IMG/VR virus record: IMGVR_UViG_3300034063_000992
Location: 1-31,727 of that record
Reading direction: 5' to 3' (one strand)
Length of the DNA stretch: 31,727 nt
DNA from: a virus
Under the pieces are notes generated by a model that ran no database searches, was not told the DNA's origin, and saw only the letters and a list, made by a program, of their open reading frames with translations. Shown here piece after piece: positions 187 to 19,413 of this stretch. Numbering within the stretch: position 1 is the first letter of the stretch; each line of letters opens with the position of its first letter. Made by a program: the position numbers and the translations under genes.

Positions 187-209
187 AAAAACCATTTAAA
201 AGGATACAA

Positions 210-926: not shown

Positions 927-936
927 AAGGATCAAC

Positions 937-1113: not shown

Positions 1114-1116
1114 ATT

Positions 1117-1557: not shown

Positions 1558-1558
1558 T

Positions 1559-2097: not shown

Positions 2098-2112
2098 CGA
2101 ATCCGTTTCGGT

Positions 2113-2120
2113 GATAAATA
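2113..2120 (+). promoter_or_regulatory. T4-late-promoter-like box GATAAATA
   Basis: Matches T4 TATAAATA at 7 of 8 positions, in the 27-base gap before the GIY-YIG gene. With T4 geometry (+1 six bases after the box) the transcript would start at the ATG of 2125 or one base inside it, so the box may instead serve the genes downstream. Confidence 0.4.
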
Positions 2121-2124
2121 ATGG

Positions 2125-3092: not shown

Positions 3093-3095
3093 ATA
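3088..3095 (+). promoter_or_regulatory. Late-promoter-like box ATTAAATA
   Basis: Matches TATAAATA at 6 of 8 positions, 24 bases before the BI-1 gene. A T4-type start at about 3101 would leave a 19-base leader carrying AAGGAG, the most conventional layout of any such box here. Confidence 0.45.
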
Positions 3096-3119
3096 TAGAT
3101 TTTACAAGGAGAAAATATT

Positions 3120-3794: not shown

Positions 3795-3795
3795 A

Positions 3796-4659: not shown

Positions 4660-4688
4660 ACTTCAGTATTATATGCTCACTTAAAAAC

Positions 4689-4727
4689 AGGGTTTTCATA
4701 GTTAAATACACATACTATGAAAACCCT
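4689..4727 (+). promoter_or_regulatory. Start-codon hairpin, 14-bp perfect stem, with TAAATA in the loop
   Basis: AGGGTTTTCATAGT (4689-4702) is the exact reverse complement of ACTATGAAAACCCT (4714-4727), with an 11-base loop TAAATACACAT. The right arm contains the ATG (4717) of the solute-binding protein gene. A message reading through from upstream would bury the start codon. The loop holds GTTAAATA (4701-4708), a T4-late-like box; initiation there (about 4714) would drop the left arm and free the ATG. A terminator or protein operator is the alternative. Confidence 0.7.
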
Positions 4728-5553: not shown

Positions 5554-5568
5554 TAGATAGGATATATT

Positions 5569-6855: not shown

Positions 6856-7435
6856 ACTATTAGAATGGATAGGTAGTAGTGCATTTAGATTATTCACTGT
6901 AATAACACTACTATTTGTCACAGCAATCGGCTGGTTTCTTTACGAAGAAAAAGATGCTTTCATGGCATCTTACAAAGCTTCACAAGCTTTGCCAAAAATG
7001 AACGGTGATTACGAAAAAGCAGTAGGATTCATTTTAAAAAATACAGAAGCAGAAATGATTGCTATCTTTGAAGTCAATACCCTGCTAAACACTAGAAAAT
7101 TAGTGTATATGACTTCTCGAAAAAGTGGTCGTGTTAAAAGCAACGACGGGTTAGATGTAGGGTTGTTAACAAAAAATCATAGCAATAATCAAGACGTTAT
7201 TAGTCTTATGTCCGGTAGTATACCGTGCGGAGTATATACTTTACCACAAAGTCAGATCGGATTTGTTTATAAAGATATGGGTGTAAATTATATGTGTAGA
7301 ATTAGTGTTCCATATGATCCCGGTACATTTATTGGACAAATATCAATAGGATGGAAAGAAGAACCGGCTGATGTCGACAAGGCTAAAACAGTTCTTACAG
7401 TAGCAAGTGGAATGCTTTATAATCCAAAACAATGA
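6827..7435 (+). CDS. Holin, T4 gp t-like
   Basis: A 202-residue protein. I chose the ATG at 6827 because AAGGAG lies 7 bases upstream. The architecture matches T4 holin T (218 aa): a short cytoplasmic N-terminus, one membrane helix at about 18-36 (FRLFTVITLLFVTAIGWFLY), then a large periplasmic domain. Recognisable T4-like stretches are FMASYKAS after the helix, and NYMCRISVPYDP...GQISIGWK near the C-terminus, which parallel YYKQS and NYMYSCPYFNL..GTITMYWY. Holins set lysis timing by opening the inner membrane. It is embedded between transport and racemase genes, with ATGA coupling to the racemase. Confidence 0.8.
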   Translation: MTAIRDFLLKLLEWIGSSAFRLFTVITLLFVTAIGWFLYEEKDAFMASYKASQALPKMNGDYEKAVGFILKNTEAEMIAIFEVNTLLNTRKLVYMTSRKSGRVKSNDGLDVGLLTKNHSNNQDVISLMSGSIPCGVYTLPQSQIGFVYKDMGVNYMCRISVPYDPGTFIGQISIGWKEEPADVDKAKTVLTVASGMLYNPKQ

Positions 7436-8124
7436 AAAAACTAGGTGTTCTCGGAGGTATGGGTCCGGCAGCTAGTGCCGAATTCATGCTTCGATTAACT
7501 AGTTTAACTCCTGCACAACAAGATCAGGATCATATTCCTACAGTATTGTGGAGCGATCCTAGAGTACCGGATCGTAGCACTAGCATATTAAACGGAGATA
7601 GCTTACCTTTACCTTGTCTTAAAGATGGAATTAAGGGCCTGCAAACAGCCGGATGTGATCATATTGTTATACCTTGTAATACAGCACATTTTTGGTATGA
7701 CGAATTAATAAAGCTAGGTACACCAATTATCCATATTGTAGATAGTGTAGCCGATTCTCTTAGAGAGATGAATGCTATAGATAAACCAATCGGTGTTCTA
7801 GGTACTAGAGGAACTATAGAACTAGGGTTATATCAAAAACATCTTCGTAAACTAGGGTGGAGCTGTATCATCCCATCAAGCAAAGAAATGGATATTATGA
7901 TCCAACCTGCTATTAATATGATAAAATCTAATCGGATAGATGAAGCATATAAACCATTAATGAACGTTATCGATAGTTTAATAACTCAAGGTGCAAAAGC
8001 CATAGTTCTTGGATGCACTGAAATTCCATTAGCAATTAGAGATACACATTATCAGGGTATATTTTTAGTAAACAGCATCGACAGTTTGGCTAAAGCAGCA
8101 ATAAAACAATTTGACAGAAATTAA
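7432..8124 (+). CDS. Aspartate/glutamate racemase family protein
   Basis: A 230-residue cofactor-independent racemase of the aspartate-racemase/YgeA type. KLGVLGGMGPAAS opens the first domain. The two catalytic cysteines are Cys82 in PCNTAH and Cys195 in GCTEIPL, both intact, so the enzyme should be active. It would interconvert L- and D-aspartate, glutamate or another amino acid. It overlaps the holin stop (ATGA) and is therefore translated with it. The N-terminal repeat-like halves and length are normal for the family. Its use to a phage is not established. Confidence 0.9.
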   Translation: MKKLGVLGGMGPAASAEFMLRLTSLTPAQQDQDHIPTVLWSDPRVPDRSTSILNGDSLPLPCLKDGIKGLQTAGCDHIVIPCNTAHFWYDELIKLGTPIIHIVDSVADSLREMNAIDKPIGVLGTRGTIELGLYQKHLRKLGWSCIIPSSKEMDIMIQPAINMIKSNRIDEAYKPLMNVIDSLITQGAKAIVLGCTEIPLAIRDTHYQGIFLVNSIDSLAKAAIKQFDRN

Positions 8125-8151
8125 ATAATTTCATACAATAGTTGTATGAAA
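8120..8151 (+). promoter_or_regulatory. Late-like box ATTAAATA followed by a start-codon hairpin
   Basis: ATTAAATA occupies 8120-8127. Immediately after it, TTTCATACAA (8129-8138) pairs perfectly with TTGTATGAAA (8142-8151) across a 3-base loop. The right arm includes the ATG at 8146. A T4-type start at about 8133 would remove part of the left arm. No Shine-Dalgarno is visible. This is the second copy of the layout seen at 4689. Confidence 0.6.
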
Positions 8152-8352
8152 CCTGTTAAAATTACATTCACAGACCATTTTCTTAATACCTTTGAGGGTA
8201 CTCAAGAAGAACTCGACGCTATTGTTGAAGAACTTAAACAAAAGTTCGCAGCAGGTAACTTCGAAGAATTCTTTGAAGATCCCAATGATCCTATTACTAT
8301 AGGAACTGGTCATGAAGACTTTTCCTATCAACAACCTAGAGTATTACACTAA
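8146..8352 (+). CDS. Small acidic hypothetical, 68 aa
   Basis: Begins with a strand (PVKITFTDHFLNTF), then an acidic helix with regularly spaced Glu (TQEELDAIVEELKQKF), then EEFFEDPNDP. I recognise no domain. The start codon lies in a hairpin (8129-8151). Confidence 0.75.
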   Translation: MKPVKITFTDHFLNTFEGTQEELDAIVEELKQKFAAGNFEEFFEDPNDPITIGTGHEDFSYQQPRVLH

Positions 8353-8353
8353 T

Positions 8354-8722
8354 ATGAATTACGAAAAACCAGCAGAAGGCATTCTCCTTCAAAAAGATTT
8401 CGGAGACTCTAAATTTTATCGTGTTCCTTGCGATTGCGGTAACACCGATCATGATATTACACTCGAAGTAGAAGCCGTAGACTACGGGATTAGCGTACAC
8501 CATTATGTTAAAGTAAAAACTGATTGGTGGACCGAACCTACTAAATTTCATTGGCTTAATAGTCTTATCCATCGTTGTAAGATTACTTGGAATGTTTGGG
8601 TCAGAGGTCATTTAGAATATGAAGTAACTACCGCAATGTCTAAACAACAGGCATTCAACTACGCATATACACTCAATGAGGCAGTTAAGGACGTTGAAAA
8701 TTTTCAAAAAAATAAAAAATGA
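8354..8722 (+). CDS. Conserved-type phage hypothetical, 122 aa
   Basis: MNYEKPAEGILL is followed by KDFGDSKFYRVPCDCG and HDITLEVEA; the CDCG...DHD cluster could bind a metal. The remainder is beta strands (YGISVHHYVKVKT), a WNVWVRGHLEY strand and a C-terminal helix. The ATG at 8354 follows the previous stop by 1 base, suggesting re-initiation. An in-frame ATG at 8312 with AGGAA upstream would add 14 residues and cannot be excluded. Function unknown. Confidence 0.75.
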   Translation: MNYEKPAEGILLQKDFGDSKFYRVPCDCGNTDHDITLEVEAVDYGISVHHYVKVKTDWWTEPTKFHWLNSLIHRCKITWNVWVRGHLEYEVTTAMSKQQAFNYAYTLNEAVKDVENFQKNKK

Positions 8723-9633
8723 CAATTTTTGTTACTATAGTTTCATACAAAGATAATCTACTATGGAATACTGTTAATAACTGCATAGCCAAATGTAGTG
8801 ATCCGTCAAGTTTACGATTCGGTATTGTAGACCAAAGCGAATATGTACATAACGTTGATCAACATCTAGCATGTGACAGAATTACATATTTGCATATCGA
8901 TCCGCAATTTAGTCGAGGTCCTTGTTGGGCTAGGTCTATTGCATTAAGTTTTTATAATAACGAAGATTATGTTTTACAGATCGATTCTCATACAGTATTT
9001 GATAAGAATTGGGATCTCCTTTTAATTCGGCAACTAAAAGAATGTCAAGAATTTTCTGAAAAATGTATTTTGAGTACATATCCTCAAGCATTTAGTATTA
9101 CTGAAAAAGGAATTAAAAAAAATAAGTTATCAGGTATTACTACTGTTTTAAAACCAAAAAATAACGCAACTATATCCGAAGATGATCCTAGCTTTAGTTT
9201 TATCGGATATAATGTAAAATCAGATAAACCAATATTAGGATCTCATGTAGCCGGCGGATTTATTTTTTGTCCGGGCAACTTTTTCTTAGAAATTCCATAC
9301 GATCCATCTTTATATTTCATTGGTGAAGAACAAAACATAGCAATACGTGCATGGACACATGGTTGGGATATATACCACCCACCTGACTCACCAGTATATC
9401 ATTTATATTACTCCGAGGGAAATCGTACCCTTCACTGGGATGCTGATGATGATGTAAAACGATTGATAAAATGGACAAATTTACATCATAATTCAAAAGT
9501 TCGGTTAAGCAATCTTTTATTTCAAAATAAAAATTTAGGCATATACGGATTAGGAAGTGTCCGAACTTTGGAAGATTTTGCAAAATTTTCCGGAATCGAT
9601 TACTTAAATAAAACTATCTTGACAAGTATATAA
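8719..9633 (+). CDS. GlcNAc-transferase-like glycosyltransferase
   Basis: A 304-residue GT-A enzyme resembling the family of Dictyostelium Skp1 GlcNAc-transferase (Pfam GlcNAc). The N-terminal strand IFVTIVSYKD opens a Rossmann-like core. RGPCWARSIA precedes LQIDSHTVFDKNWD with the metal motif Asp89-Ser90-His91. The catalytic-domain block GEEQNIAIRAWTHGWD starts at Gly202 and is followed by HLYYSEGNR. The family transfers GlcNAc, in the best-studied case to hydroxyproline. The window also encodes a collagen-like fibre (28783), a conceivable acceptor, but that link is speculation. It overlaps its upstream neighbour at ATGA. Confidence 0.8.
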   Translation: MTIFVTIVSYKDNLLWNTVNNCIAKCSDPSSLRFGIVDQSEYVHNVDQHLACDRITYLHIDPQFSRGPCWARSIALSFYNNEDYVLQIDSHTVFDKNWDLLLIRQLKECQEFSEKCILSTYPQAFSITEKGIKKNKLSGITTVLKPKNNATISEDDPSFSFIGYNVKSDKPILGSHVAGGFIFCPGNFFLEIPYDPSLYFIGEEQNIAIRAWTHGWDIYHPPDSPVYHLYYSEGNRTLHWDADDDVKRLIKWTNLHHNSKVRLSNLLFQNKNLGIYGLGSVRTLEDFAKFSGIDYLNKTILTSI

Positions 9634-9659
9634 AAATCAATTACAATTAATAATCGACT

Positions 9660-9872
9660 ATGAAACATACTATACTTAAAACAGAAGACAATTCCGCTCT
9701 TGTAGAGTTTGAAAATGACAGCGGTCTAGTTTATTCAAGATCTATTAATATTCCATCCGAATCCGGCGGTGATGTTAATCATCCTAGTTTTTTATCTATT
9801 CTCGAGCATCAAAAAAATTCAATTGCTTATAAAGCATCTATTGGCGTTATTTCTTTTAGTGAAAAAGCATGA
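9660..9872 (+). CDS. Small hypothetical, 70 aa
   Basis: A beta-rich protein: KHTILKTEDNSALVEFEND and SGLVYSRSINIP look like a hairpin, then an acidic linker. Overlaps the next gene at ATGA. The 26-base gap before it shows no Shine-Dalgarno. I do not recognise the family. Confidence 0.7.
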   Translation: MKHTILKTEDNSALVEFENDSGLVYSRSINIPSESGGDVNHPSFLSILEHQKNSIAYKASIGVISFSEKA

Positions 9873-10429
9873 AAAAAATTTCAAGCAGTCCCGAACGCAA
9901 TACCTTTCAAAAAGAAAGTTATCTAAAACGGCAGTCTGAAAAAGGTCTAACTCCCGAAAATGATCCAGAGACTGCCGATATGCTTGATTACTACTTAAAA
10001 ATTATCGAAGATGATAAAGAAAAAGAAGTAGATCTCGAATGGCAAAAAAATAATCTAGAATACGATCTACGGAGTAATAGTTGGATTTTGGAAAAAGTTA
10101 AATCCGACGAAACTTATGCTCAGAACCTTTATGCAGCATTATGCAACAATGAGTTTCAAAAGCTAGATGTAATTCCTATTCTCAAAGATCAAAAATGGAG
10201 TTGTAGTTGGCGTTATGCTGGCGGAATTATTGCCGATATGCGCGAAGAAGGTGATTACATTGATTGGTATTGTTCAGGTATTCACGATCACGGCGACGAC
10301 GGAGAAGGCATTGATATTAACTTCGTTGAAAGAAACTATGTTTCCGAAAGTGTAGTAACTGACGAAATTCGAGAAGATCTTAAAAAACTTGGGTGGATTG
10401 TAGTCACTGACGACGATGAAACCCTTTGA
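9869..10429 (+). CDS. Conserved-type phage hypothetical, 186 aa
   Basis: The N-terminal half is charged and helical (Lys/Glu-rich, residues 1-90). The C-terminal half contains LKDQKWSCSWRYAGGIIADMR, then GDYIDWYCSG and an acidic GDDGEG loop, ending with a helix-strand DLKKLGWIVVTD. I recall this Trp/Cys-rich block from large environmental phages, always without a function. Overlaps the next gene by 14 bases. Confidence 0.75.
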   Translation: MKKISSSPERNTFQKESYLKRQSEKGLTPENDPETADMLDYYLKIIEDDKEKEVDLEWQKNNLEYDLRSNSWILEKVKSDETYAQNLYAALCNNEFQKLDVIPILKDQKWSCSWRYAGGIIADMREEGDYIDWYCSGIHDHGDDGEGIDINFVERNYVSESVVTDEIREDLKKLGWIVVTDDDETL

Positions 10430-10670
10430 AATTTCAGAAAAATCTTGGGCAAAAGTCTATAATCAATTGTCTAAAGAATATCCGCCAAGCTATCTTATAA
10501 TTCGAGATAAGATGAAAGACAAACTTGGTTTTGTATTTCGGAGGCACGAATATTGGTCTCAAGATATGGGCGGGATGCATCGTAACGAAACACTTTATTT
10601 AGATTTCTATGACGAAAAAAAACGTACAATGTTTTTACTCAAATATGGAGAAATTTTAAATGACAACTAA
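10416..10670 (+). CDS. LxW-related small protein
   Basis: An 84-residue protein with the C-terminus EKKRTMFLLKYGEILNDN. This is a degenerate version of the LFxLRW ending of the 12-gene array (Tyr for Trp, extended tail). The TAT GGA GAA codons contribute a GGAG Shine-Dalgarno 10 bases before the next ATG, so the motif again overlaps the downstream ribosome-binding site. Function unknown. Confidence 0.7.
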   Translation: MKPFEISEKSWAKVYNQLSKEYPPSYLIIRDKMKDKLGFVFRRHEYWSQDMGGMHRNETLYLDFYDEKKRTMFLLKYGEILNDN

Positions 10671-11010
10671 TGCTTTTATTTTTAGTTGGGATCAATTGGG
10701 TATCGAAAGTATTATTCCAATTACAGAATACGAACATCACGATAAACAAAATCTCATGCGTATGCTGAAAGGTGACGAAGCTATTCGAAATCCCCTTAAC
10801 AATATTGTTCAAAGCTTAATCATTCGAGCAAGATATAATCCGCAACGTCATTATGAAATCTATGCTATAGATTGTGATCCTAGTCTTGATGAAGAATTTT
10901 GGATCCAACAGTGGAAAGAACATCCACAATTTACTGCTGATCTGATTAGAGATAAAGGTCATAAAATTTATTCAGATAGGCAAACAATGACCAATTTGGT
11001 AATTACTTAA
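10660..11010 (+). CDS. Hypothetical protein, 116 aa
   Basis: Reads as a phage small protein with a strand start (NAFIFSWDQLGIESIIPI), a helix with RMLKGDEA, and an HYEIYAIDCDPSLDEEFW block. The codons ahead of it supply GGAG. It ends 9 bases before the sigma70 promoter at 11020. No family recognised. Confidence 0.72.
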   Translation: MTTNAFIFSWDQLGIESIIPITEYEHHDKQNLMRMLKGDEAIRNPLNNIVQSLIIRARYNPQRHYEIYAIDCDPSLDEEFWIQQWKEHPQFTADLIRDKGHKIYSDRQTMTNLVIT

Positions 11011-11019
11011 AATCCACTC

Positions 11020-11048
11020 TTGACAATGGATATAAATGGTGCTATAAT
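11020..11048 (+). promoter_or_regulatory. Perfect sigma70 promoter, TTGACA-N17-TATAAT
   Basis: TTGACA at 11020-11025, a 17-base spacer and TATAAT at 11043-11048. It lies in the 70-base gap before the 396-residue gene and should start transcription near 11055. This is full consensus for a host housekeeping polymerase, so it is probably an early phage promoter. Confidence 0.9.
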
Positions 11049-11080
11049 ATAAGTATAGACATAGCACTAAGGAGATTATT

Positions 11081-12271
11081 TTGGCTACAGCAACTAAGAC
11101 TCGAAACACTGCGATTAATCGTGTTCGCGAAAGTTCAAAGCGTGATCCTAGCCCTAAGTGGGACAGTGCTGAATCTATGTCCGCTGAACAATTTTCTGCC
11201 CACTTCCGTGAGGCAATGAAGTATTACAATCTCGAACATTCTGGCAAAGACCTCAAACCTAAGGTCATTGATTGGATGGGACGTAATGGTTATTCCAAAG
11301 ATGAGATTGCTGGTTTCAAGCGTACTAAGGATAGCCGTTGCGGTGTCACTATGGGTGCCATTGCTGCTTGCTTGATCAAAGGTATGCCCGCAGTTCGTAA
11401 GGATTTCAACCAAGGTCGTGATACTAGCGAATGGTTGCGTAATGAAATCCGCAAAGTTACTTATGATGGCCGTGAAGATATTGAAGTCGTTGACGCAGTT
11501 AAGCCCGTTAAGAGCCTTGCTCCAGTTATCAATATTCAAGATCGCATTCGTGAGCAAGCTGGACAAATGAGTGAAGAGCTTGACGCAGCTATTGATTCTT
11601 TTATCACAGATCCCAATGCGTTTGATCCTAAGGCATTTAAGATTGTTAATCTGTTACGTGGTAAGGGTGCTAAGGCTGCTCAAGCTCGTTATATCCGTAG
11701 CTTCTTTGAGCGTGGGCATAATGAGTTGATGGAATTGGCCGGTGGCACAGCCGATGATCAACTACGTGAAGGATATAAGCATCATCCTCGCAAGAACATC
11801 AAGAAGTTAATTGAGTTTTATGAAGCTATTGCTCAAGCATGTGAGCAAATCGCAGCAGAAGCAAAGATCCTCAAGAAGCCCCGTGCTAAGAAGATTAAGC
11901 CTGCCGAAGAGTTGGTTAAGAAACTCAAGTTCTGCGTTAAGGATGACAAGTTAGGTATTGTTAGTGTTCCGCCGGCTGGGCTAATCGGAGCACAAGGTGC
12001 TGTTGTCTTTAATGTCAAGACTAGAAAGCTCGGTGTGTATATTTCAAAGAGTAGTGCCGGACTAAGTGTTAAGGGAACCAGTATTACAGACTTTACTGAA
12101 AAGAGTTTTCAAAAGACTCTACGTGTTCCTGCTACTCAACTGAAAGAGTTTAAAGAGCAGAACACACAGAAGCGAGTCGAAACTTGGTTTGCTAAGAGTG
12201 TCAAAACTACAGAAACTGTGCTCAACGGTCGTATGAGTGAAGACATTGTTTTGCTCAAGGTGTTCAAGTGA
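11081..12271 (+). CDS. Conserved-type phage hypothetical, 396 aa (TTG start)
   Basis: Headed by a consensus sigma70 promoter and AAGGAG (11069-11074), 6 bases before a TTG start, so the annotated start is well supported despite the rare codon. The N-terminus is basic (TKTRNTAINRVRESSKR). Residues ~35-130 are helical with a TMGAIAACLIKGMPA segment. A second helical region (165-285) ends in a Lys/Ala-rich stretch. The C-terminal ~120 residues look like beta strands (GAVVFNVKTRKLGVYIS). It has more C/G-ending codons than its neighbours, compatible with high early expression. Known to me only as an unknown phage protein. Confidence 0.85.
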   Translation: MATATKTRNTAINRVRESSKRDPSPKWDSAESMSAEQFSAHFREAMKYYNLEHSGKDLKPKVIDWMGRNGYSKDEIAGFKRTKDSRCGVTMGAIAACLIKGMPAVRKDFNQGRDTSEWLRNEIRKVTYDGREDIEVVDAVKPVKSLAPVINIQDRIREQAGQMSEELDAAIDSFITDPNAFDPKAFKIVNLLRGKGAKAAQARYIRSFFERGHNELMELAGGTADDQLREGYKHHPRKNIKKLIEFYEAIAQACEQIAAEAKILKKPRAKKIKPAEELVKKLKFCVKDDKLGIVSVPPAGLIGAQGAVVFNVKTRKLGVYISKSSAGLSVKGTSITDFTEKSFQKTLRVPATQLKEFKEQNTQKRVETWFAKSVKTTETVLNGRMSEDIVLLKVFK

Positions 12272-12456
12272 TCTGGGAAGTTAGAAATGTAGGGTGGCCA
12301 ATTCCATACGGAGATACTTGGCCAGTGTCTAATCATAAACCTCAACCTTGGTATCCTTCTGAACAACTATCTCAACCTAGTAATATTCAAAATTATTATA
12401 AAGACTGGTTTCATTCGAAAATATATAAAGGACAAATTGTCAACGGGTGGTATTGA
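12268..12456 (+). CDS. Small Trp/Pro-rich hypothetical, 62 aa (GTG start)
   Basis: The GTG start overlaps the previous stop (GTGA). The product contains seven Trp and many Pro/Tyr. Its last codons (AAC GGG TGG TAT) provide GGGTGG just before the next gene, the same junction style as the LxW array it leads into, although it lacks LFxLRW itself. Confidence 0.65.
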   Translation: MIWEVRNVGWPIPYGDTWPVSNHKPQPWYPSEQLSQPSNIQNYYKDWFHSKIYKGQIVNGWY

Positions 12457-12458
12457 GT

Positions 12459-12791
12459 GTGGCAAAGAAAATATTTCACAAACTTGATCGACGTAACACC
12501 GGATATGGTGATTGGGCTTATTACATAAACAGACAACCTAATATCAACATTGGGTTATTTAATGCTACTCAAAAATTCTACGAATGGCGTAATTGGTGTT
12601 GGCAAACTTGGGGACCTAGTAAAGAACTAGTCAGTTGGTTCGAAGATTTACGAAATCAAATACAAAACCCTAATCTAATAGCAATCAGTCACAATGAACA
12701 TTGGTGCTGGCAACATGATCAATATGCTACAAGAATTTATCTACGTACAGATAAAGAACTAAGTATGTTCTTACTCAAATGGTCGATATAA
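12459..12791 (+). CDS. LxW array gene 1, 110 aa
   Basis: The longest array member, ending DKELSMFLLKWSI. The middle has RNWCWQTWG and EHWCWQHDQ, two Trp-Cys-Trp clusters. I prefer the GTG at 12459, 3 bases after the previous stop and 9 bases after GGGTGG; an in-frame GTG at 12447 would add four residues. The AAATGG of Lys-Trp holds the next ATG. Confidence 0.72.
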   Translation: MAKKIFHKLDRRNTGYGDWAYYINRQPNINIGLFNATQKFYEWRNWCWQTWGPSKELVSWFEDLRNQIQNPNLIAISHNEHWCWQHDQYATRIYLRTDKELSMFLLKWSI

Positions 12792-12997
12792 CCTGGAACA
12801 AAAACCAACGATATCATATTACAAAGAATCTTGGTTTAGGTAAAATAATTGTTTTGACCAATATAGAATTCTGGAATACACACTATGAAGAACTGAAAGA
12901 TTGGTGTGATTGTAATAACGCAGAACTAACTGGCATGATTGTAGAATTTCAACATGAAAGAGATCTTACTTTATTTTGTCTAAAATGGTCCCAATAA
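12779..12997 (+). CDS. LxW array gene 2, 72 aa
   Basis: The start codon lies inside the LKW codons of gene 1 (13-base overlap, no Shine-Dalgarno). Contains LKDWCDCNNAEL at the conserved WC position and ends ERDLTLFCLKWSQ. Function unknown. Confidence 0.75.
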   Translation: MVDITWNKNQRYHITKNLGLGKIIVLTNIEFWNTHYEELKDWCDCNNAELTGMIVEFQHERDLTLFCLKWSQ

Positions 12998-13206
12998 CTT
13001 TTCAAGGTATGACTGCCCGAGAGGGATTAGACCATGTAAGTGAATTAGTCGCCTCTGGTTTAACTCGTAACATAGATTTTGAATGGGCTTATAACCAAGA
13101 GACATTTGGTGAAGGTAGGCATGGTAAATATTGCGAGTTTAGATTTCAGGATCCAAAACTCGCAACTTTCTATTCACTTAAATGGCAAACGAAGATAAAG
13201 ACTTAA
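12985..13206 (+). CDS. LxW array gene 3, 73 aa
   Basis: ATG formed by AAATGG of gene 2's Lys-Trp codons; an in-frame TTG at 12976 is a less likely start. Central FEWAYNQETFGEGRHG, then CEFRFQDPKLATFYSLKWQTKIKT, in which the motif is followed by seven residues. Overlaps gene 4 by 25 bases. Confidence 0.73.
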   Translation: MVPITFQGMTAREGLDHVSELVASGLTRNIDFEWAYNQETFGEGRHGKYCEFRFQDPKLATFYSLKWQTKIKT

Positions 13207-13472
13207 ATGACGATCTAGATGGACTACTTATACCGTGGCATTGGGTCGATGTCGAAGTCATTAAGCACGATGTTATGTTTGATGAATGGTGCGACAAACA
13301 ACGATTTGAATTTGGTATAGATTACTATTATGTAGTCACTGACAAATATCCCGCATATTCATCCGAATGGGGCAGATTTAAACTAGGTAAACAACGAGCA
13401 TTTCACTACTTGTTCAAAGATTCAAAAAATGCTATACTATTTAGACTTCGATGGTCTGAATATATAGCATAA
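13182..13472 (+). CDS. LxW array gene 4, 96 aa
   Basis: Starts in the LKW codons of gene 3. A very acidic N-terminus (NEDKDLNDDLDG) is specific to this copy. Central DEWCDKQRFEFGIDYYY and C-terminal DSKNAILFRLRWSEYIA match the family. Confidence 0.75.
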   Translation: MANEDKDLNDDLDGLLIPWHWVDVEVIKHDVMFDEWCDKQRFEFGIDYYYVVTDKYPAYSSEWGRFKLGKQRAFHYLFKDSKNAILFRLRWSEYIA

Positions 13473-13473
13473 A

Positions 13474-13719
13474 ATGAAAACTTCAGTTTATAACTTTAGA
13501 TTTGAAAAACAAAACGATCCTTACAGACATTATTCCATAGACTTGCCAGAAGGTTGGTATTGTAATGTCTACACTAACGATCCAGAATTTGAACCGTGGA
13601 TGGAACGAATGTGTCCCACTGCCGATGTTACTTTGAGATTCAACAGTGGCAATCCAATGTATACGGTTTACATCAAAGAAGAAAAAGAAGCAGTCCTATT
13701 TCAATTAAGGTGGCGATAA
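13474..13719 (+). CDS. LxW array gene 5, 81 aa
   Basis: Begins 1 base after gene 4's stop. EPWMERMCPTADVTL occupies the WC position and the end is EEKEAVLFQLRWR. Its AAGGTGG (Leu-Arg-Trp codons) provides the Shine-Dalgarno for gene 6. Confidence 0.77.
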   Translation: MKTSVYNFRFEKQNDPYRHYSIDLPEGWYCNVYTNDPEFEPWMERMCPTADVTLRFNSGNPMYTVYIKEEKEAVLFQLRWR

Positions 13720-14006
13720 TGAATGTTAGTCAAGTTGTTCAGCAAATAAGCAATATAGATCTCGATGATTCTATTGTACCTATGCGTAAGGGTACAAGTA
13801 AGTCTTGGATGGGAGAGTATCATTGGGTATCTCCACCTATGCCTCGTAGCCAAGAAGTTCATGTCAAGCGAAACAATGATCTGGAAAAAGTAGAATGGTG
13901 TGAGCAGCAGTTTGGACATAGCGGGCATAGATGGTTTGCTAACCACAATCGATTCTACTTCAAGAATGAAGGAGATATGACCATGTTTGTTTTGAGGTGG
14001 GCATGA
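13719..14006 (+). CDS. LxW array gene 6, 95 aa
   Basis: TAATG overlap with gene 5, preceded by AAGGTGG. Residues ~62-75 read EWCEQQFGHSGHRWF. The tail is NEGDMTMFVLRWA. The first 30 residues (VSQVVQQISNIDLDD) are unique. GAGGTGGG in the motif codons serves gene 7. Confidence 0.77.
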   Translation: MNVSQVVQQISNIDLDDSIVPMRKGTSKSWMGEYHWVSPPMPRSQEVHVKRNNDLEKVEWCEQQFGHSGHRWFANHNRFYFKNEGDMTMFVLRWA

Positions 14007-14224
14007 AAGATTTACCCTACAAGGTTATCACACCAAAACAGATTGTTGAGCCTGCTAAACGGTGGTGCGAAGAACAAGTTGGAGAGCGTTGGTGTGCTAC
14101 ACAAAATCGCAATGGAAAGTGGTGCGTATTTTGGGCAGGCTCTCGCAGTAAGAATCCAGGAACCTATGAATGGTTTTTTGAAAACGATAAAGATGCCGTA
14201 TTGTTTGCGTTGAGGTGGTTATAG
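14003..14224 (+). CDS. LxW array gene 7, 73 aa
   Basis: ATGA overlap with gene 6; the ATG at 14003 sits 5 bases after GAGGTGG. The best example of the central motif: KRWCEEQVGERWCATQNRNG. Ends NDKDAVLFALRWL. Confidence 0.8.
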   Translation: MKDLPYKVITPKQIVEPAKRWCEEQVGERWCATQNRNGKWCVFWAGSRSKNPGTYEWFFENDKDAVLFALRWL

Positions 14225-14472
14225 TGTCTATACTCAAACTAAGTACCAGCTACTTTCATTGCCCACCATGTTGGATAAACTTTATTGACAATATTATCAA
14301 TAATGGGCACGATTGGTACATACATAAACCCGGAAAGGTTGTTCCTACGGAAGTGATTGATTCTGCTTTAGGTAAGTATAAAGCCAGGTACCTTGAAAAG
14401 GCTGCTACCGCTCCTTGTATCATATTTGAAGATGATAAACTGAAAACATTGTTTATACTGGAATGGTCATGA
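14224..14472 (+). CDS. LxW array gene 8, 82 aa (GTG start)
   Basis: GTG overlaps the TAG of gene 7 (TAGTG), after GAGGTGG. The central region differs most (CPPCWINFIDNIINNGHDWY). The C-terminus is DDKLKTLFILEWS, with Glu replacing Arg/Lys in LRW. Confidence 0.73.
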   Translation: MSILKLSTSYFHCPPCWINFIDNIINNGHDWYIHKPGKVVPTEVIDSALGKYKARYLEKAATAPCIIFEDDKLKTLFILEWS

Positions 14473-14684
14473 TTGAAATTTTTTTGTCAGACAAACACAT
14501 GTCATTTGAAGATGGAAATCAAAGATTCATTGATGCCGATCAGTGGGCTAAGAATACTTGCACAACATATAAGGGATATAATGTACAGGATGTATCAGAT
14601 GTGTCATATGATTGTGATCAGATTGCTCTATATCTTTTTGAGAGTGAAAAAGATGCTACAATGTTCTCGTTGAGGTGGTCATGA
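14469..14684 (+). CDS. LxW array gene 9, 71 aa
   Basis: ATGA overlap. An alternative ATG at 14463 lies in the GAATGG codons of gene 8's Glu-Trp, the AAATGG-type mode. Acidic protein with DADQWAKNTCTTYKGYN and the end SEKDATMFSLRWS. Confidence 0.76.
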   Translation: MIEIFLSDKHMSFEDGNQRFIDADQWAKNTCTTYKGYNVQDVSDVSYDCDQIALYLFESEKDATMFSLRWS

Positions 14685-14902
14685 TTAAGAAGCAATACCC
14701 CATATATTACCCCATATATCCTCCTCGCATTAGTTATTTTGGAAACTTTATGAATACAGTAGGATATGACTGGTACTCCATCGAAGAAGAGCTAAAAAAA
14801 TACAACGCAACAGTTGCCAAGTCTAAGAATGAATACTATAGGATGAATGTCAAGTGGCATGATCCTAAACTATATTCATTGTTTGTGTTGAGGTTTTCAT
14901 GA
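14681..14902 (+). CDS. LxW array gene 10, 73 aa
   Basis: ATGA overlap after GAGGTGG. N-terminus rich in Tyr/Ile/Pro (YPIYYPIYPPRISYFG); ends HDPKLYSLFVLRFS, with Phe replacing Trp. Contains VGYDWYSIEEEL, like gene 8's HDWY segment. Confidence 0.75.
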   Translation: MIKKQYPIYYPIYPPRISYFGNFMNTVGYDWYSIEEELKKYNATVAKSKNEYYRMNVKWHDPKLYSLFVLRFS

Positions 14903-15135
14903 ATATTGAATTTTCAAAATCAACTCATCCCACATTGTTTCAAGCAGTTGTGCGGGTTGTAGAATATATATGTAACAAACATCAAACACGCAATGAACGA
15001 GAAGTAATTAGTTTGATCCAACAAGAATTTGGAGTTAGACTAATACGCAAAGACGGAACCACTCCAACTACAGTATGGATTGCCCATTTTGCTAGTGAAA
15101 AGGTTTGTACCATGTTTATGTTAAGGTGGACATAA
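14899..15135 (+). CDS. LxW array gene 11, 78 aa
   Basis: ATGA overlap after GAGG. A helical first half (HPTLFQAVVRVVEYICNKH) is followed by EFGVRLIRKDG and FASEKVCTMFMLRWT. AAGGTGG in its last codons precedes gene 12. Confidence 0.76.
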   Translation: MNIEFSKSTHPTLFQAVVRVVEYICNKHQTRNEREVISLIQQEFGVRLIRKDGTTPTTVWIAHFASEKVCTMFMLRWT

Positions 15136-15296
15136 TGTTTAAAGTTCAAACTTGGTATCGTGATCAGTTTTGGGAATGGTGTCAAAAGAATAATATCCTT
15201 TGCGAATATATGGGCACCACACCGAGAGAGGAAACAGATACGTGGTATATCGGAAATACTAAAGATAGAACTTTGGCTATATTAAGATGGGGTTGA
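15135..15296 (+). CDS. LxW array gene 12, 53 aa
   Basis: The shortest member: TAATG overlap, then FWEWCQKNNILCEYMG (central motif), TWYIGNTKDRTLAILRWG. It appears to be the minimal unit of the family. The array ends here and the spacing opens to 17 bases. Confidence 0.74.
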   Translation: MFKVQTWYRDQFWEWCQKNNILCEYMGTTPREETDTWYIGNTKDRTLAILRWG

Positions 15297-15300
15297 CTTC

Positions 15301-15308
15301 GATAAATA
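15301..15308 (+). promoter_or_regulatory. T4-late-promoter-like box GATAAATA
   Basis: Matches TATAAATA at 7 of 8. The +1 expected six bases later is 15314, exactly the A of the SDR-like gene's ATG, so its late mRNA would be leaderless. No Shine-Dalgarno is visible for this gene, which is consistent. Confidence 0.5.
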
Positions 15309-15313
15309 TTAAA

Positions 15314-15799
15314 ATGAAATACGCAATCACAGGTCATACAAGCGGTATAGGCAAAAATATTTTTGAAAAATTATCTCCTGATATTATTGGCTTTAGTAAA
15401 AGCACAGATTATGATATAACAAAGTTTATTGATCGACAACGGATTATTCAAGAATCAAAGGATTGCGACATTTTCATAAATAATGCTCATGACGGATTTG
15501 GACAAACATTATTATTAATAGAACTGTTTAGAGAATGGAAAAATTTAGATAAGACTATAATAAATGTCGGAAGTCGAATATCTGAAATAATTTTACCAGA
15601 CAACAGATTAGACCTTCTTTACTATCAATCTGAAAAATTAATTTTAAAAAATATGAGTCAAAGACTTATCGGAAAATGTAAAATTAAATATAAATGGTTT
15701 TCCTACGTAGGTACTGAAAAAATTTTAAAAAAATATCCTCACTTTACGCAAGATGATTATATCACCGAAGATCAAGCTGCAAAAATTATTTTATCTTGA
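15314..15799 (+). CDS. Short-chain dehydrogenase-like protein, truncated
   Basis: A 161-residue protein with the nucleotide-binding start of an SDR, ITGHTSGIGK (residues 5-14, TGxxxGIG). NNAHDG (56-61) stands for NNAG, IINVGSRIS holds the catalytic-type Ser, and YQSEK (Tyr104...Lys108) is the YxxxK pair. Classical SDRs are ~250 residues; this one stops after the catalytic core and lacks the usual C-terminal substrate region. Substrate unknown. I chose the ATG at 15314 over one at 15287 because the Rossmann strand starts there. Confidence 0.75.
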   Translation: MKYAITGHTSGIGKNIFEKLSPDIIGFSKSTDYDITKFIDRQRIIQESKDCDIFINNAHDGFGQTLLLIELFREWKNLDKTIINVGSRISEIILPDNRLDLLYYQSEKLILKNMSQRLIGKCKIKYKWFSYVGTEKILKKYPHFTQDDYITEDQAAKIILS

Positions 15800-15824
15800 C
15801 ATCTAACATAATAGAGTGTATAAT
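15796..15824 (+). promoter_or_regulatory. Perfect sigma70 promoter, TTGACA-N17-TATAAT
   Basis: TTGACA at 15796-15801 overlaps the SDR-like stop codon; TATAAT is at 15819-15824 with a 17-base spacer. Transcription should begin near 15831 and run into the zinc-ribbon gene and the MNERI array. Confidence 0.9.
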
Positions 15825-15840
15825 ATACACATGTTCAACT

Positions 15841-15860
15841 TAATTGCCAGGAGGCAATTA
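15841..15860 (+). promoter_or_regulatory. Hairpin presenting the Shine-Dalgarno in its loop
   Basis: TAATTGCC (15841-15848) pairs with GGCAATTA (15853-15860) around an AGGA tetraloop. The ribosome-binding site AGGAGG (15849-15854) spans loop and stem, and the last stem base is the A of the ATG (15860). This could tune translation by temperature, protein binding or ribosome occupancy. Confidence 0.65.
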
Positions 15861-16066
15861 TGGATTTACCCAAAATACCTTGTACCACCTGTCATAGAAC
15901 TACTCGTTTGCCTACGCAGCAGTGGTGGTCGCTACGTAACTATTATGGATTCAGCGGCGACTTCTGTCCCAGTTGCTATGACAAGATTAGCCACGATAGT
16001 TATGGTCGGCCCCGTCGTCCCAAAGACTACACTTTTATGCTTTTGAAGTTTGGAGTAAAATCATGA
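15860..16066 (+). CDS. Zinc-ribbon small protein, 68 aa
   Basis: Two Cys pairs (CTTC at 8-11 and CPSC near 36-39) form a treble-clef or zinc-ribbon. Residues between are Trp/Arg-rich. The C-terminus FMLLKFGVKS ends exactly like the MNERI family although the rest is unrelated; its GGAG (in TTT GGA GTA) is the Shine-Dalgarno for the next gene. First gene after a consensus promoter. Confidence 0.78.
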   Translation: MDLPKIPCTTCHRTTRLPTQQWWSLRNYYGFSGDFCPSCYDKISHDSYGRPRRPKDYTFMLLKFGVKS

Positions 16067-16311
16067 ACGAACGAATTGTAAAACTTATCTCCGAGGCTGA
16101 TGCTCATGCTCGGTCTATTGCTGACAAGTATTCTCCCGATAGCGGCGAAGTTAGCTACTTGTGGGAAGATGCGTTCCGTAAAAAGTTCGCCGAGTTGATT
16201 GTTCAGGAGTGTGCTTACATTGTAGAGAACAGCCCATGGCAGCTTCGGCGTGGATATAAGGCAATAGATCAAGCCAATTTAGTCAAACAACATTTCGGAG
16301 TAAAATCATGA
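16063..16311 (+). CDS. MNERI-family protein 1, 82 aa
   Basis: MNERIVKLISEADAHA, then a variable linker, KKFAELIVQECAYIVEN near residue 41, and LVKQHFGVKS. ATGA overlap with the zinc-ribbon gene. Mostly helical by appearance, with a conserved Cys in the central block. Function unknown; I recall similar proteins as unknowns in environmental phages. Confidence 0.85.
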   Translation: MNERIVKLISEADAHARSIADKYSPDSGEVSYLWEDAFRKKFAELIVQECAYIVENSPWQLRRGYKAIDQANLVKQHFGVKS

Positions 16312-16574
16312 ACGAACGAATTTTTGAACTTGCCAAACAGGCGGGTTTTATCGAAGAGGACGGTGGCAACAATCTTCACGTATTTGATGGCTATGAGGCA
16401 ATAACGTGTACAGAAGAACTCAAAAAGTTCGCCGAGTTGATTGTAGGGGAATGTTATGAGACAATAAAGAAGGATATGGAATTGGCACATATCCAATTGA
16501 TCCCAATAGATTTTGGGATTTATGCTAATGGCAGGCTACGCCGAATTATTAAAGAACACTTCGGAGTTGAATAA
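16308..16574 (+). CDS. MNERI-family protein 2, 88 aa
   Basis: MNERIFELAKQAGF, acidic linker, LKKFAELIVGECYETI around residues 39-54, then a long variable piece and RIIKEHFGVE. Starts in ATGA with gene 1. Confidence 0.85.
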   Translation: MNERIFELAKQAGFIEEDGGNNLHVFDGYEAITCTEELKKFAELIVGECYETIKKDMELAHIQLIPIDFGIYANGRLRRIIKEHFGVE

Positions 16575-16783
16575 TGAACGAACGAATCTATGAACTTGCC
16601 GTAGAAACGGGTATCATCAAGGAAGAAGAAGGCTACTACTGGATTCAATCTGTTGATACCTTAGAAAAGTTCGCCGAGAGGATTGTTCGGGAATGTGCCG
16701 AAATAAGTGAAAATTATGCAGGTGGATCGATGCCAGTATTGATTGCATGTGCTATAAAAGAACATTTCGGAGTTGAAGAATGA
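16574..16783 (+). CDS. MNERI-family protein 3, 69 aa
   Basis: MNERIYELAVETGI, EKFAERIVRECAEI from about residue 34, AIKEHFGVEE. TAATG overlap with protein 2. Slight variant of the central block (AERIV for AELIV). Confidence 0.85.
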   Translation: MNERIYELAVETGIIKEEEGYYWIQSVDTLEKFAERIVRECAEISENYAGGSMPVLIACAIKEHFGVEE

Positions 16784-16986
16784 GATTGGAGCGAGTTGAG
16801 TACAGTAAACAACACTGGTATATGACCGTATACCTTCACTGTGACTACAATCTAGTACGAAGAATTGGTGGTGGCTCCACAAAAGATTGGGAATTGGTTC
16901 AAGGAAATTTGGACTTGGATCTATTTGACGAGTGGATGGAAGAACTGCTACAAAAGCATTTAGAATCTAATAGATGGAGCCAATAA
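16780..16986 (+). CDS. Small hypothetical, 68 aa, inserted in the array
   Basis: Unrelated to MNERI proteins: a beta-like start (RLERVEYSKQHWYMTVYLH), then an acidic helix (DLDLFDEWMEELLQKHL). It ends NRWSQ, whose GGAG supplies the next gene's ribosome-binding site. ATGA overlap upstream, TAATG downstream. Confidence 0.72.
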   Translation: MRLERVEYSKQHWYMTVYLHCDYNLVRRIGGGSTKDWELVQGNLDLDLFDEWMEELLQKHLESNRWSQ

Positions 16987-17213
16987 TGAACGAAAGAATT
17001 TGTGAACTTGCACTACAGGCTGGTGAATATGTAAATGTTTATATTGGGCATGTGGATTGGCATAGACAATTTCATCAAAAGTTCGCCGAGTTGATTGTTA
17101 AGGAATGTGCTGACCTTTATGATAAATCGGCAGATGACTGGTTTGGTACAGACACAAAATATATTCTAAAACTATATGCTGAACGAATTAAAAAACATTT
17201 CGGAGTTGAATGA
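16986..17213 (+). CDS. MNERI-family protein 4, 75 aa
   Basis: MNERICELALQAGEY, HQKFAELIVKECADLYD near residue 31, RIKKHFGVE. TAATG overlap with the preceding unrelated gene. Confidence 0.85.
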   Translation: MNERICELALQAGEYVNVYIGHVDWHRQFHQKFAELIVKECADLYDKSADDWFGTDTKYILKLYAERIKKHFGVE

Positions 17214-17422
17214 TGCCCACTAAACTAATAGTAGATGAATATACTAAATCAAAAATGCCAGAGTACATTGGGCTAACAATAATACCAAAATACTGGCACT
17301 GCGATAATGAAGATTTGATCTATTGTGAGTGTTTAGAAAATCCACAATTAGACGGTTACATTTTTTATCTTTTTCTAGAGAATTGGAATATAGAAACCGA
17401 CTTTAGGTTTGGAGTTGAATGA
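17210..17422 (+). CDS. Small hypothetical with grafted FGVE end, 70 aa
   Basis: MMPTKLIVDEYTKSKMPEYIG...YCECLENPQLDGYIFYLFLENW is unlike the MNERI family, yet it ends FRFGVE with the same TTTGGAGTTGAATGATG junction. The start is at 17210 or the second ATG at 17213. It shows that the terminal motif travels independently of the protein body. Confidence 0.7.
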   Translation: MMPTKLIVDEYTKSKMPEYIGLTIIPKYWHCDNEDLIYCECLENPQLDGYIFYLFLENWNIETDFRFGVE

Positions 17423-17544
17423 TGAGTGATAAAGACTTTCTGTTATGGTTAGCTGCAAGGCTTGTAAATGTTCATGGCGAACATGAACTAACAGATTTTG
17501 TCATCAAATTAAAGGAGATTGCAAATGAACGAACGAATCCGTGA
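17422..17544 (+). CDS. Small conserved-type phage protein, 40 aa
   Basis: MSDKDFLLWLAARLVNVHGE...DFVIKLKEIA: a short helical protein I recall from many phages (DKDFLxWIxxRLVxVxGE), function unknown. The start is at 17422 (or 17419, ATGATG). Its C-terminus runs 20 bases into the next MNERI gene in another frame, and its AAAGGAG is that gene's Shine-Dalgarno. Confidence 0.75.
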   Translation: MSDKDFLLWLAARLVNVHGEHELTDFVIKLKEIANERTNP

Positions 17545-17740
17545 ACTTGTCGAGCAGTGTACTTCATGGTCTGATGGTAGTACTTGGACTTCCCGAGAAG
17601 TATTTGACAAGAAAAAATTCGCCGAGTTATTAATTCGGGAATGTGCAGCGTATGTCAAAAATTCAAATTGCTTTACTTACGCTAGTCAAGCAGACTTATG
17701 TGCTGAAAGAATGACACAACATTTCGGAGTTGAACAATGA
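17525..17740 (+). CDS. MNERI-family protein 5, 71 aa
   Basis: MNERIRELVEQCTSW, Ser/Thr-rich linker, KKKFAELLIRECAAYVK around residue 30, RMTQHFGVEQ. I chose the ATG at 17525 after AAAGGAG; a 17519 start has no support. Confidence 0.84.
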   Translation: MNERIRELVEQCTSWSDGSTWTSREVFDKKKFAELLIRECAAYVKNSNCFTYASQADLCAERMTQHFGVEQ

Positions 17741-17949
17741 CCAAGCTATCAGATGTGCCACACGATAAGGTAATAGGGTTGCAGGTAATTAGCCATAGAG
17801 GCACCAGAGGCATAGTGACTGAAGCATATAGAGACACCCGCTATAGAGAAGATGATGTTGATGGTTATTTTATTCACATTAAATGGGATAATGGTAATAT
17901 AAGCAGGCAACGCCATTATCTGTTAGAATCAGTGGAGGTTATTGAATAA
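17737..17949 (+). CDS. Small SH3/KOW-like protein, 70 aa
   Basis: MTKLSDVPHDKVIGLQVISHRGTRGIVTEA...YFIHIKWDNGN reads as a five-stranded barrel: a glycine-centred GTRGIVTE turn followed by an IKWDNG strand. I have seen similar phage proteins without a function. Ends GGAGGTTATTGAATAATG, an AGG-type ribosome site for the next gene. Confidence 0.72.
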   Translation: MTKLSDVPHDKVIGLQVISHRGTRGIVTEAYRDTRYREDDVDGYFIHIKWDNGNISRQRHYLLESVEVIE

Positions 17950-18182
17950 TGAACGAACGAATTAAAGAACTTGCAAAACAGGCCGGAATGTGGCGTCAAC
18001 ATTATGATATTGGTGAAGAATCTCCTAGCAATTTGGAAGAGTTCGCCGAACTGATTGTTCAAGAATGTGTTACAATTTGCGAACAACAAAGAACAAAGAT
18101 TTTGCAAAACCCTAGCGACCCAAGTTGGACTGAGCATTTAGCAGAAGTTCAAAACAATATTAAACAACACTTTGGAGTTTAA
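17949..18182 (+). CDS. MNERI-family protein 6, 77 aa
   Basis: MNERIKELAKQAGMW, LEEFAELIVQECVTICEQQ from about residue 30, NNIKQHFGV with TTTGGAG. TAATG overlap with the barrel protein. Confidence 0.85.
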   Translation: MNERIKELAKQAGMWRQHYDIGEESPSNLEEFAELIVQECVTICEQQRTKILQNPSDPSWTEHLAEVQNNIKQHFGV

Positions 18183-18184
18183 GA

Positions 18185-18439
18185 ATGATCGAAGTGATGA
18201 AAGACTGTCCATTTTGCGGCCATCCTATGGATATGGCCGATCCGGATACCCTGTATCCTACTGGTACAGGATGGAAACTTCAGCCCAATGGTATAAAGTC
18301 CTATCATTCGTTCCATGCGGTACCCAAAGAACAATGGTGCTATAGTATTCACTGTGTCACTACTAGTGGAGGTTGCGGAGTGGAGATAAGCGGCGATTCT
18401 GCGCAGGAATGCATTGACAGATGGAATAAGCGAGTATGA
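18185..18439 (+). CDS. Lar-like zinc-finger protein, 84 aa
   Basis: KDCPFCGHPMDM at the N-terminus supplies one Cys pair (8 and 11) and SIHCVTTSGGCG another near 57-64. The end ECIDRWNKR is the typical tail of Lar-type (restriction-alleviation-like) phage zinc proteins. Lar of Rac prophage modulates type I restriction; for such phage relatives the role is unproven. An ATG at 18197 is an alternative start. Confidence 0.75.
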   Translation: MIEVMKDCPFCGHPMDMADPDTLYPTGTGWKLQPNGIKSYHSFHAVPKEQWCYSIHCVTTSGGCGVEISGDSAQECIDRWNKRV

Positions 18440-18720
18440 ACGAACGAATTCGTGAACTATACCAGCAGGCTCACATGGTTAGAGAATATCCAGCAGATGA
18501 TCCTATGCGTGGTGGCAATCCTCCTACCGTATATTGGGGTGGTGAGCGTAGTGCTGAAAAATTCGCCGAACTCATTGTTCGAGAATGTATTATGATTTGT
18601 TGGCCTGGCGGAGAATCGGATGTTCTGTATGAGCAGGCCAGTGCAATAGACAAGGCCTTTATTGATGGACAAGATGCGTGTGTAGAACGATTGAAACAAC
18701 ATTTCGGAGTTGAATCGTGA
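18436..18720 (+). CDS. MNERI-family protein 7, 94 aa
   Basis: The longest member: MNERIRELYQQAHMV, a Pro/Gly-rich linker, AEKFAELIVRECIMICW around residue 40, RLKQHFGVES. ATGA overlap upstream. The 16 bases GGAGTTGAATCGTGAA at its end (18706-18721) recur at 18865-18880. Confidence 0.85.
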   Translation: MNERIRELYQQAHMVREYPADDPMRGGNPPTVYWGGERSAEKFAELIVRECIMICWPGGESDVLYEQASAIDKAFIDGQDACVERLKQHFGVES

Positions 18721-18872
18721 AAACTGAAACGGTAGTTCTAAAAATTGAAAAACGGGTAAATGAGGCTAATGAATTAGAACCTAACCTCTATACAGTAATT
18801 GAAAATGATGTTATACTCTTTACTACACACGATGCTGTCTATGCTCTACAGGCAGTGTTGAACAGGAGTTGA
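18717..18872 (+). CDS. Small hypothetical, 51 aa (GTG start)
   Basis: MKTETVVLKIEKRVNEANELEPNLY..: strand, helix, strand and a short helix. The GTG overlaps the TGA of protein 7. Its terminal AACAGGAGTTGA reuses the array junction sequence in a different reading frame (NRS instead of GVES). Confidence 0.72.
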   Translation: MKTETVVLKIEKRVNEANELEPNLYTVIENDVILFTTHDAVYALQAVLNRS

Positions 18873-18875
18873 ATC

Positions 18876-19082
18876 GTGAATCCAATGTATCTAACCCTTG
18901 ATGATGTAAAGCACAAATTAGGTCTTCCTTGGGAAGGTGTAGCGTTTGCGGTTGATGCCCCCGAGGCAATTTACCGTAAAATCAAGCAACGACCTTATTG
19001 GCAATGGATTAAGTCAGATCAAGATATGGCTCAATTCCGTAAAATCTTTAATGAAAGTGTGATTGTAGGTAGTGTAAAATGA
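18876..19082 (+). CDS. Small hypothetical, 68 aa (GTG start)
   Basis: MNPMYLTLDDVKHKLGLPWEGVAFAVDAPEAIYRKIKQRP...: appears helical with a winged-helix-like first half. GTG follows AGGAG by 8 bases. Overlaps the next gene at ATGA. Family unknown. Confidence 0.7.
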   Translation: MNPMYLTLDDVKHKLGLPWEGVAFAVDAPEAIYRKIKQRPYWQWIKSDQDMAQFRKIFNESVIVGSVK

Positions 19083-19231
19083 CTGATTTAGAAACTTTCT
19101 TACTGCTAATTCTTGCTTGGATTGACGGTATTATTTTGGGATATATTATTTGGGCACCTACAACACCTTACAAACAGGGCCTGATTAACGGATTGAGTCT
19201 AAAGTTTATTTGGGGTAGGTTTGTAAAATGA
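19079..19231 (+). CDS. Single-pass membrane micro-protein, 50 aa
   Basis: MTDLETFLLLILAWIDGIILGYIIW forms one hydrophobic helix (residues ~6-25) with an Asp in the middle, then a short polar tail (TPYKQGL..) ending FVK. ATGA overlaps on both sides. Function unknown. Confidence 0.72.
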   Translation: MTDLETFLLLILAWIDGIILGYIIWAPTTPYKQGLINGLSLKFIWGRFVK

Positions 19232-19413
19232 ACGAACGATTAAAGCAATTAATGCAGGAAGCAGGGTATGCTGCACCTGAAATTGCCGGCAGGGCCAATA
19301 AACTTGCCGAACTGATTGTTCGGGAATGTGCCAATCGCGCAAGTTGGGCGCAGGACACAAACGAAGCAGATATTGGTGGCGAGGTATTGAAACATTTAGG
19401 AGTTTCGGAATGA
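19228..19413 (+). CDS. MNERI-family protein 8, 61 aa
   Basis: The shortest copy: MNERLKQLMQEAGY, NKLAELIVRECANRASW, LKHLGVSE. The terminal motif is diverged (HLGV for HFGV, TTAGGAGTT). ATGA overlap upstream; AGGAG gives the next gene's ribosome site. Confidence 0.84.
   Translation: MNERLKQLMQEAGYAAPEIAGRANKLAELIVRECANRASWAQDTNEADIGGEVLKHLGVSE

Follow-up and report, generated by a model that had tools for sequence, protein, structure and literature searches.

Why do all the members of a row of small viral genes end in nearly the same residues, and do the codons for these residues also start the next gene? This question is raised by a 31.7 kb virus record with myovirus tail genes, the whole of which is called the window here. 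It holds 12 tandem small genes of 53-110 aa at 12459-15296 on the + strand and, apart from this array, a similar gene pair at 1559-2097, also on the + strand. In all 12 array genes and in the pair, F.L(R/K)W or a near variant of it stands 1-8 residues before the stop. A further single copy at 10416-10670 (+ strand), which ends in MFLLKYGEILNDN, was assigned to the family by its profile match. The first-pass annotation of this DNA had proposed that the L(R/K)W codons double as the start signal of the next gene in two modes, and every junction it named was exact.

In one mode, the ATG of the next gene lies inside AAATGG, at 1792, 12779, 12985 and 13182. The first gene of the pair (1559-1804, 81 aa, ending FNLKWAR) holds in its LKW codons (1787-1795) the ATG at 1792 of the second (1792-2097, 101 aa, ending FYLRWGNIK). 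Array gene 1 (12459-12791, 110 aa, GTG start, ending FLLKWSI) holds the ATG of gene 2 in its LKW codons at 12774-12782; genes 2 (12779-12997, 72 aa) and 3 (12985-13206, 73 aa) both start inside AAATGG and hold the ATGs of genes 3 and 4 in their own LKW codons at 12980-12988 and 13177-13185. In the other mode, AGG TGG stands just before the next start and would serve as its Shine-Dalgarno (SD) sequence. This is the case for gene 5 (13474-13719, 81 aa; TTA AGG TGG at 13705-13713) with the TAATG start at 13719 (TTAAGGTGGCGATAATG), gene 6 (13719-14006, 95 aa; TTG AGG TGG at 13992-14000) with the ATGA start at 14003 (TTGAGGTGGGCATGA), gene 7 (14003-14224, 73 aa; TTG AGG TGG at 14210-14218) with the GTG start at 14224 (TTGAGGTGGTTATAGTG), gene 9 (14469-14684, 71 aa; TTG AGG TGG at 14670-14678) with the ATGA start at 14681 (TTGAGGTGGTCATGA) and gene 11 (14899-15135, 78 aa; TTA AGG TGG at 15121-15129) with the TAATG start at 15135 (TTAAGGTGGACATAATG). 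Two further junctions, absent from the first-pass list, behave alike. At 14469, the motif of gene 8 (14224-14472, 82 aa, GTG start) reads LEW (CTG GAA TGG at 14458-14466; CTGGAATGGTCATGA), with in-frame ATGs at 14463, inside the motif, and at 14469. At 14899, that of gene 10 (14681-14902, 73 aa) reads LRF (TTG AGG TTT at 14888-14896; TTGAGGTTTTCATGA), with GAGGT as the putative SD.

Three Arg copies in the window have no gene starting at an overlap. Gene 4 (13182-13472, 96 aa) reads CTT CGA TGG at 13446-13454 and has a five-residue tail; the next ATG lies one base past its stop, and this non-overlapping junction lacks AGG, as expected. Gene 12, the last of the array (15135-15296, 53 aa), reads TTA AGA TGG at 15282-15290, and the second gene of the pair, which has no abutting gene, reads TTA AGA TGG at 2074-2082. 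AGG was therefore used in 6/6 Arg copies before an abutting gene and in 0/3 elsewhere. The ATG at 15287, inside the terminal AGATGG of gene 12, opens a 170-aa ORF (15287-15799), but the internal ATG of MKYAITG, about 30 nt on, is the likelier start. This ORF, 3' of the array, resembles the N-terminus of a short-chain dehydrogenase (MKYAITGHTSGIGKNIF).

Related copies were collected with DNA patterns that match the C-terminal motif whatever its codons, which returned at least 120, at least 120, 106 and 99 viral contig stretches; the 14 motif proteins of the window were too diverged for a search for related loci from their alignment. A profile built from the 22 C-terminal residues gave at least 1,831 distinct copies and, after dropping those at least 70% alike, at least 1,346, which span at least 288 viral loci with up to 26 copies per locus. 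Matches on genome contigs came without arrays and were judged to be due to chance. The median pN/pS was 0.26 over 1,238 pairs, which indicates purifying selection, and we therefore regard the copies as real genes. They were classed by the start position of the next gene, with start codons inferred from open frames and the motif codons left out of the classing. Coupled copies had the next start at -4 (NTGA) or -1 (TAATG), a stop/start overlap found in 908 of the 1,346 copies. In uncoupled copies, a small class of 96, the stretch between 45 nt upstream and 8 nt downstream of the stop contained no ATG start followed by a 40-codon open frame; for those with no ATG within 60 nt downstream, the surroundings of the stop also had to be free of GTG and TTG starts. 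Among the 129 copies with the next start at 0 to +8, exactly one base separated the stop and the next ATG in 69, and AGG use was intermediate in these 69.

The codons of the motif depended strongly on whether a gene abutted. The comparison of synonymous codons in internal and terminal copies, which the first-pass annotation had suggested as a check, gave AGG for 80% of the Arg codons in coupled copies (476/598) vs 20% in uncoupled copies (10/50; p 2e-17), and 9% as background in the rest of these genes. The Leu codon ended in G in 559/730 coupled copies (77%) vs 33/96 uncoupled copies (34%; p 5e-16; background 32%), and Arg was chosen over Lys in 598/730 (82%) vs 50/96 (52%; p 1e-9; background 51%). 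In all three respects the uncoupled copies match the background or sit close to it. The pattern might be thought incidental, a by-product of base composition, lineage or codon usage in a motif conserved for the protein only, and the equal conservation of its residues with and without a following gene, described below, agrees with this. However, the codon and Arg/Lys choices depended on context within a locus (stratified p 1e-4 for AGG, 4e-7 for Leu codons ending in G and 5e-4 for Arg/Lys) and within a protein family (1e-6, 4e-6 and 5e-6, respectively), none of 5000 within-locus permutations reached the observed contrast, and the effect faded with distance to the next ATG. An incidental origin is thus very improbable. 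The contrasts also hold at stricter score cut-offs and when only copies with a one-residue tail are compared.

The share of AGG among Arg codons was 0.80 with a spacer of 5 nt and 0.90 at 6-8 nt, and fell to 0.50 at 9-11, 0.36 at 12-14, 0.12 at 15-20 and 0.06 at 21-30 nt. An SD behaves in this way, and a rare codon near a stop does not. AGG makes up only 9% of the Arg codons elsewhere in the motif genes, which would suit a role as a rare codon that holds the ribosome back close to the stop. Among copies equally far from their own stop, however, AGG was dropped where no gene abutted (0.82 with vs 0.19 without), and a pause explains neither the Leu codons ending in G nor the preference for Arg over Lys, so that we give this explanation next to no chance. 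AGG was also kept in 28 of 33 coupled copies that end in LR[FY]. GAGGTG was found in 46% of the ATGA motif pairs, usually 3 nt 5' of the ATG, vs 2% of control ATGA pairs from the same loci, in which GGAG or AAGGA was used. The anti-SD of the 16S tail is CCUCC. Against this general sequence, which may not be that of the host, the mean duplex energy was -6.8 for motif pairs vs -3.8 for control pairs. Some abutting copies, a minority that have Lys or CGN for Arg, carry no clear SD, and therefore the SD seems helpful but not essential.

The residues themselves behaved differently from their codons. With motif-independent detection, coupled and uncoupled copies kept L in 99 and 99%, [RK] in 93 and 91%, W in 81 and 78% and L.W in 80 and 77% (p 0.4-1), and the last residue (S, A or L) was much alike in both classes. 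In copies found by homology outside the motif, AGG still made up 377/482 of the Arg codons (0.78) when coupled vs 9/37 (0.24) when uncoupled. Since L, the charge and W are kept equally with or without a following gene, the motif is conserved for the protein, and the ribosome-binding site (RBS) tuned it but did not create it. The suggestion that the motif is conserved partly as an RBS therefore fails for L, W and the positive charge and stands for Arg over Lys (82 vs 52%), for AGG and for the Leu codon ending in G. Terminal copies keep the motif with free synonymous change, which the first-pass annotation had named as the result that would speak against it; this refutes the view that the RBS gave rise to the protein motif and leaves the double use of its codons standing. 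Judging from these frequencies, SD selection would act only on the codons of the motif and on the choice between R and K.

We therefore favour, with a probability of about 0.85, the reading that the motif is kept for the protein, that its codons double as the SD or the ATG of the next gene and that gene order may change without loss of expression. The protein would require L, the positive charge and W. As it usually stops one residue past W, [C/T]TG-AGG-TGG would fall where an SD is needed at an ATGA or TAATG overlap, and its GAGGUG could pair with CACCUC of the 16S tail at a distance to the start of 3 nt for ATGA and 6 nt for TAATG. Initiation of the next gene would then select for a Leu codon ending in G, for Arg over Lys and for AGG. 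In the second mode, the Arg or Lys codon would end in A, so that A-TGG itself becomes the start ATG. A ribosome that finishes one gene would probably begin again on the one after it by termination-reinitiation. As each gene would carry the start signal for its follower, re-ordering could leave expression intact.

Classes defined by an ATG in the motif would be circular for the second mode, and we therefore chose pairs only by an open frame and the lack of any other start. This gave 76 adjacent pairs in which the frame of the next motif gene was open through the motif and there was no ATG from -4 to +30. The Lys codon was AAA in 23/23 of these (65% expected, p 8e-5), and the Arg codon was AGG or ended in A in 52/53 (26 AGG, 26 ending in A, 1 other); among the AGG cases listed, GTG starts at -4 (TCGTGA or GCGTGA) were common. 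Together, the contrasts in codons, Arg/Lys and start ATGs strongly support, for both modes, the earlier proposal of a joint constraint on the protein motif and the initiation signal.

The neighbours of the motif genes changed quickly. When homologous motif genes from different loci were paired, the next gene was homologous too in 6% of the pairs at 40-50% identity, 20% at 60-70%, 34% at 70-80%, 51% at 80-90% and 62% above 90%, compared to 14, 45, 54, 66 and 85% for other small genes (up to 130 aa) of the same loci in the same bands; the homology rules were slightly different, and the difference is indicative. The motif-gene arrays thus appear to be shuffled faster than other small genes. High turnover would also be expected if the DNA word TTGAGGTGGTCATGA were kept mainly as microhomology for cassette recombination, with a secondary role as an RBS, and an unrelated array, HFGVE, fixes GGA even without an abutting gene, as a DNA-level role predicts for that family. 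In the LRW genes, however, the word is lost from those members of the same families and loci that are uncoupled, it depends on the spacing to the ATG, and it behaves like an SD in that AGG is kept with LRF, GTG starts and TAATG; we consider microhomology as its main purpose to be very unlikely. Faster shuffling fits a unit that carries the start signal of the next unit, but it is not proof of why the arrangement was selected. The idea of self-contained cassettes gains indirect support from this turnover and from the RBS of each gene lying inside the preceding one. The data show that codons and residues depend on context and spacing, that the protein motif is conserved equally in both classes and that neighbours turn over fast; coupled translation and selection for re-orderability are what we infer. 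A bolder version, that a standard connector has evolved in which the codons of a C-terminal motif start the next gene, arrays are freely re-orderable with every gene translated and RNA-level selection picks Arg or Lys, is tentative and has somewhat less than an even chance. The connector rule (L[RK]W plus one residue, then ATGA) can be used for start-site annotation in LRW phages and may serve as a design rule for compact operons.

The motif proteins had no match above the cut-off in Pfam, NCBIfam and PHROGs profile searches and no relative in a sequence search of the PDB. AlphaFold predicted a beta-alpha-beta-beta-beta-alpha fold (E-H-E-E-E-H) for array gene 7 (pLDDT 93.6, pTM 0.81), with the motif in the last helix, and gave a pLDDT of 90.2 and a pTM of 0.83 for array gene 1, a second subfamily. 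Fold matches of the models were uncharacterised phage proteins. Comparison of the gene 7 model with Ferredoxin-like and PII-like folds was weak (TM-scores of at most about 0.5 with PDB entries, E above 0.4), and a PDB fold search with the second-subfamily model found no meaningful match. These small phage proteins make up a large family that has no name. Its members are predicted to have a compact alpha/beta fold, and their last helix finishes with ..DA..F.L(R/K)W and roughly one more residue. A role in host takeover or counter-defence would be a guess.

The only credible cultured relative in tblastn searches against cultured phages was the Sinorhizobium jumbo phage Phosso (PV764938), in which 8 genes in 8 kb reached profile scores of 6-29, so that the C-terminal profile matched in a tandem array. 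As in the LRW arrays, there are runs of genes of 75-110 aa with many ATGA overlaps, several of which end in FKL[RATVM][WFM]; unlike in the LRW arrays, the last positions are looser and the codons are mostly not SD-like. The overlap therefore does not need the motif, and the Phosso arrangement suggests, but does not prove, that the family is older than the use of its codons as an SD. At positions 1-16000 of the Phosso record (PV764938), tRNA genes are interspersed among the small genes of the arrays, and the small genes are all annotated as hypothetical.

Termination-reinitiation at ATGA and TAATG overlapping pairs with an intragenic SD, and the resulting constraint on the upstream C-terminus, are established (Huber et al. 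2019, PMC6728339). In those pairs the SD lies in unrelated C-termini, whereas in the LRW arrays a single conserved motif, shared by the C-termini of a large set of paralogues, supplies it, and selection is visible on the choice of amino acid (R over K). Close genes are also known to constrain synonymous sites and stop codons at the end of the upstream gene (Eyre-Walker 1996, as cited in Palleja et al. 2009, PMC2784483); as cited there, these were genome-wide averages, while the LRW effect is motif-specific and spacing-dependent, with homologous copies in both contexts. Our literature search found this general principle and no description of the LRW family or of a conserved motif in such a role, and in papers on Atu_ph07 and AP-J-162 a term search turned up no paralogous small-gene arrays. 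Overlapping genes with an intragenic SD are therefore known, but a conserved motif that supplies the SD across a shuffled cassette family appears to be new. Rows of tiny genes with a common end motif that apparently doubles as the next start signal are found in many large phages. With hundreds of homologues to compare inside and outside this context, the motif genes offer an unusually clean natural experiment on how an RBS shapes upstream codons and amino-acid choice, and they reveal a large family of small phage proteins that lacks annotation and stands in modular-looking arrays.

The HFGVE array, the second and unrelated array of small genes in the window, lies at 15860-19413 (+ strand), and its proteins follow the pattern MNERI..ELA..A..KFAELIV.EC..HFGVE. 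The terminal HFGVE is encoded by CAY TTC GGA GTN GAR, so that in this family, too, the C-terminal motif encodes an SD, GGAG, 4-7 nt before the overlapping ATG. This family had no codon contrast between coupled and uncoupled copies, the codon being fixed in both contexts: GGA was used in about 98% of 277 copies (background 27%) and in 23/23 of those without an abutting gene, with no relaxing, unlike in the LRW family.
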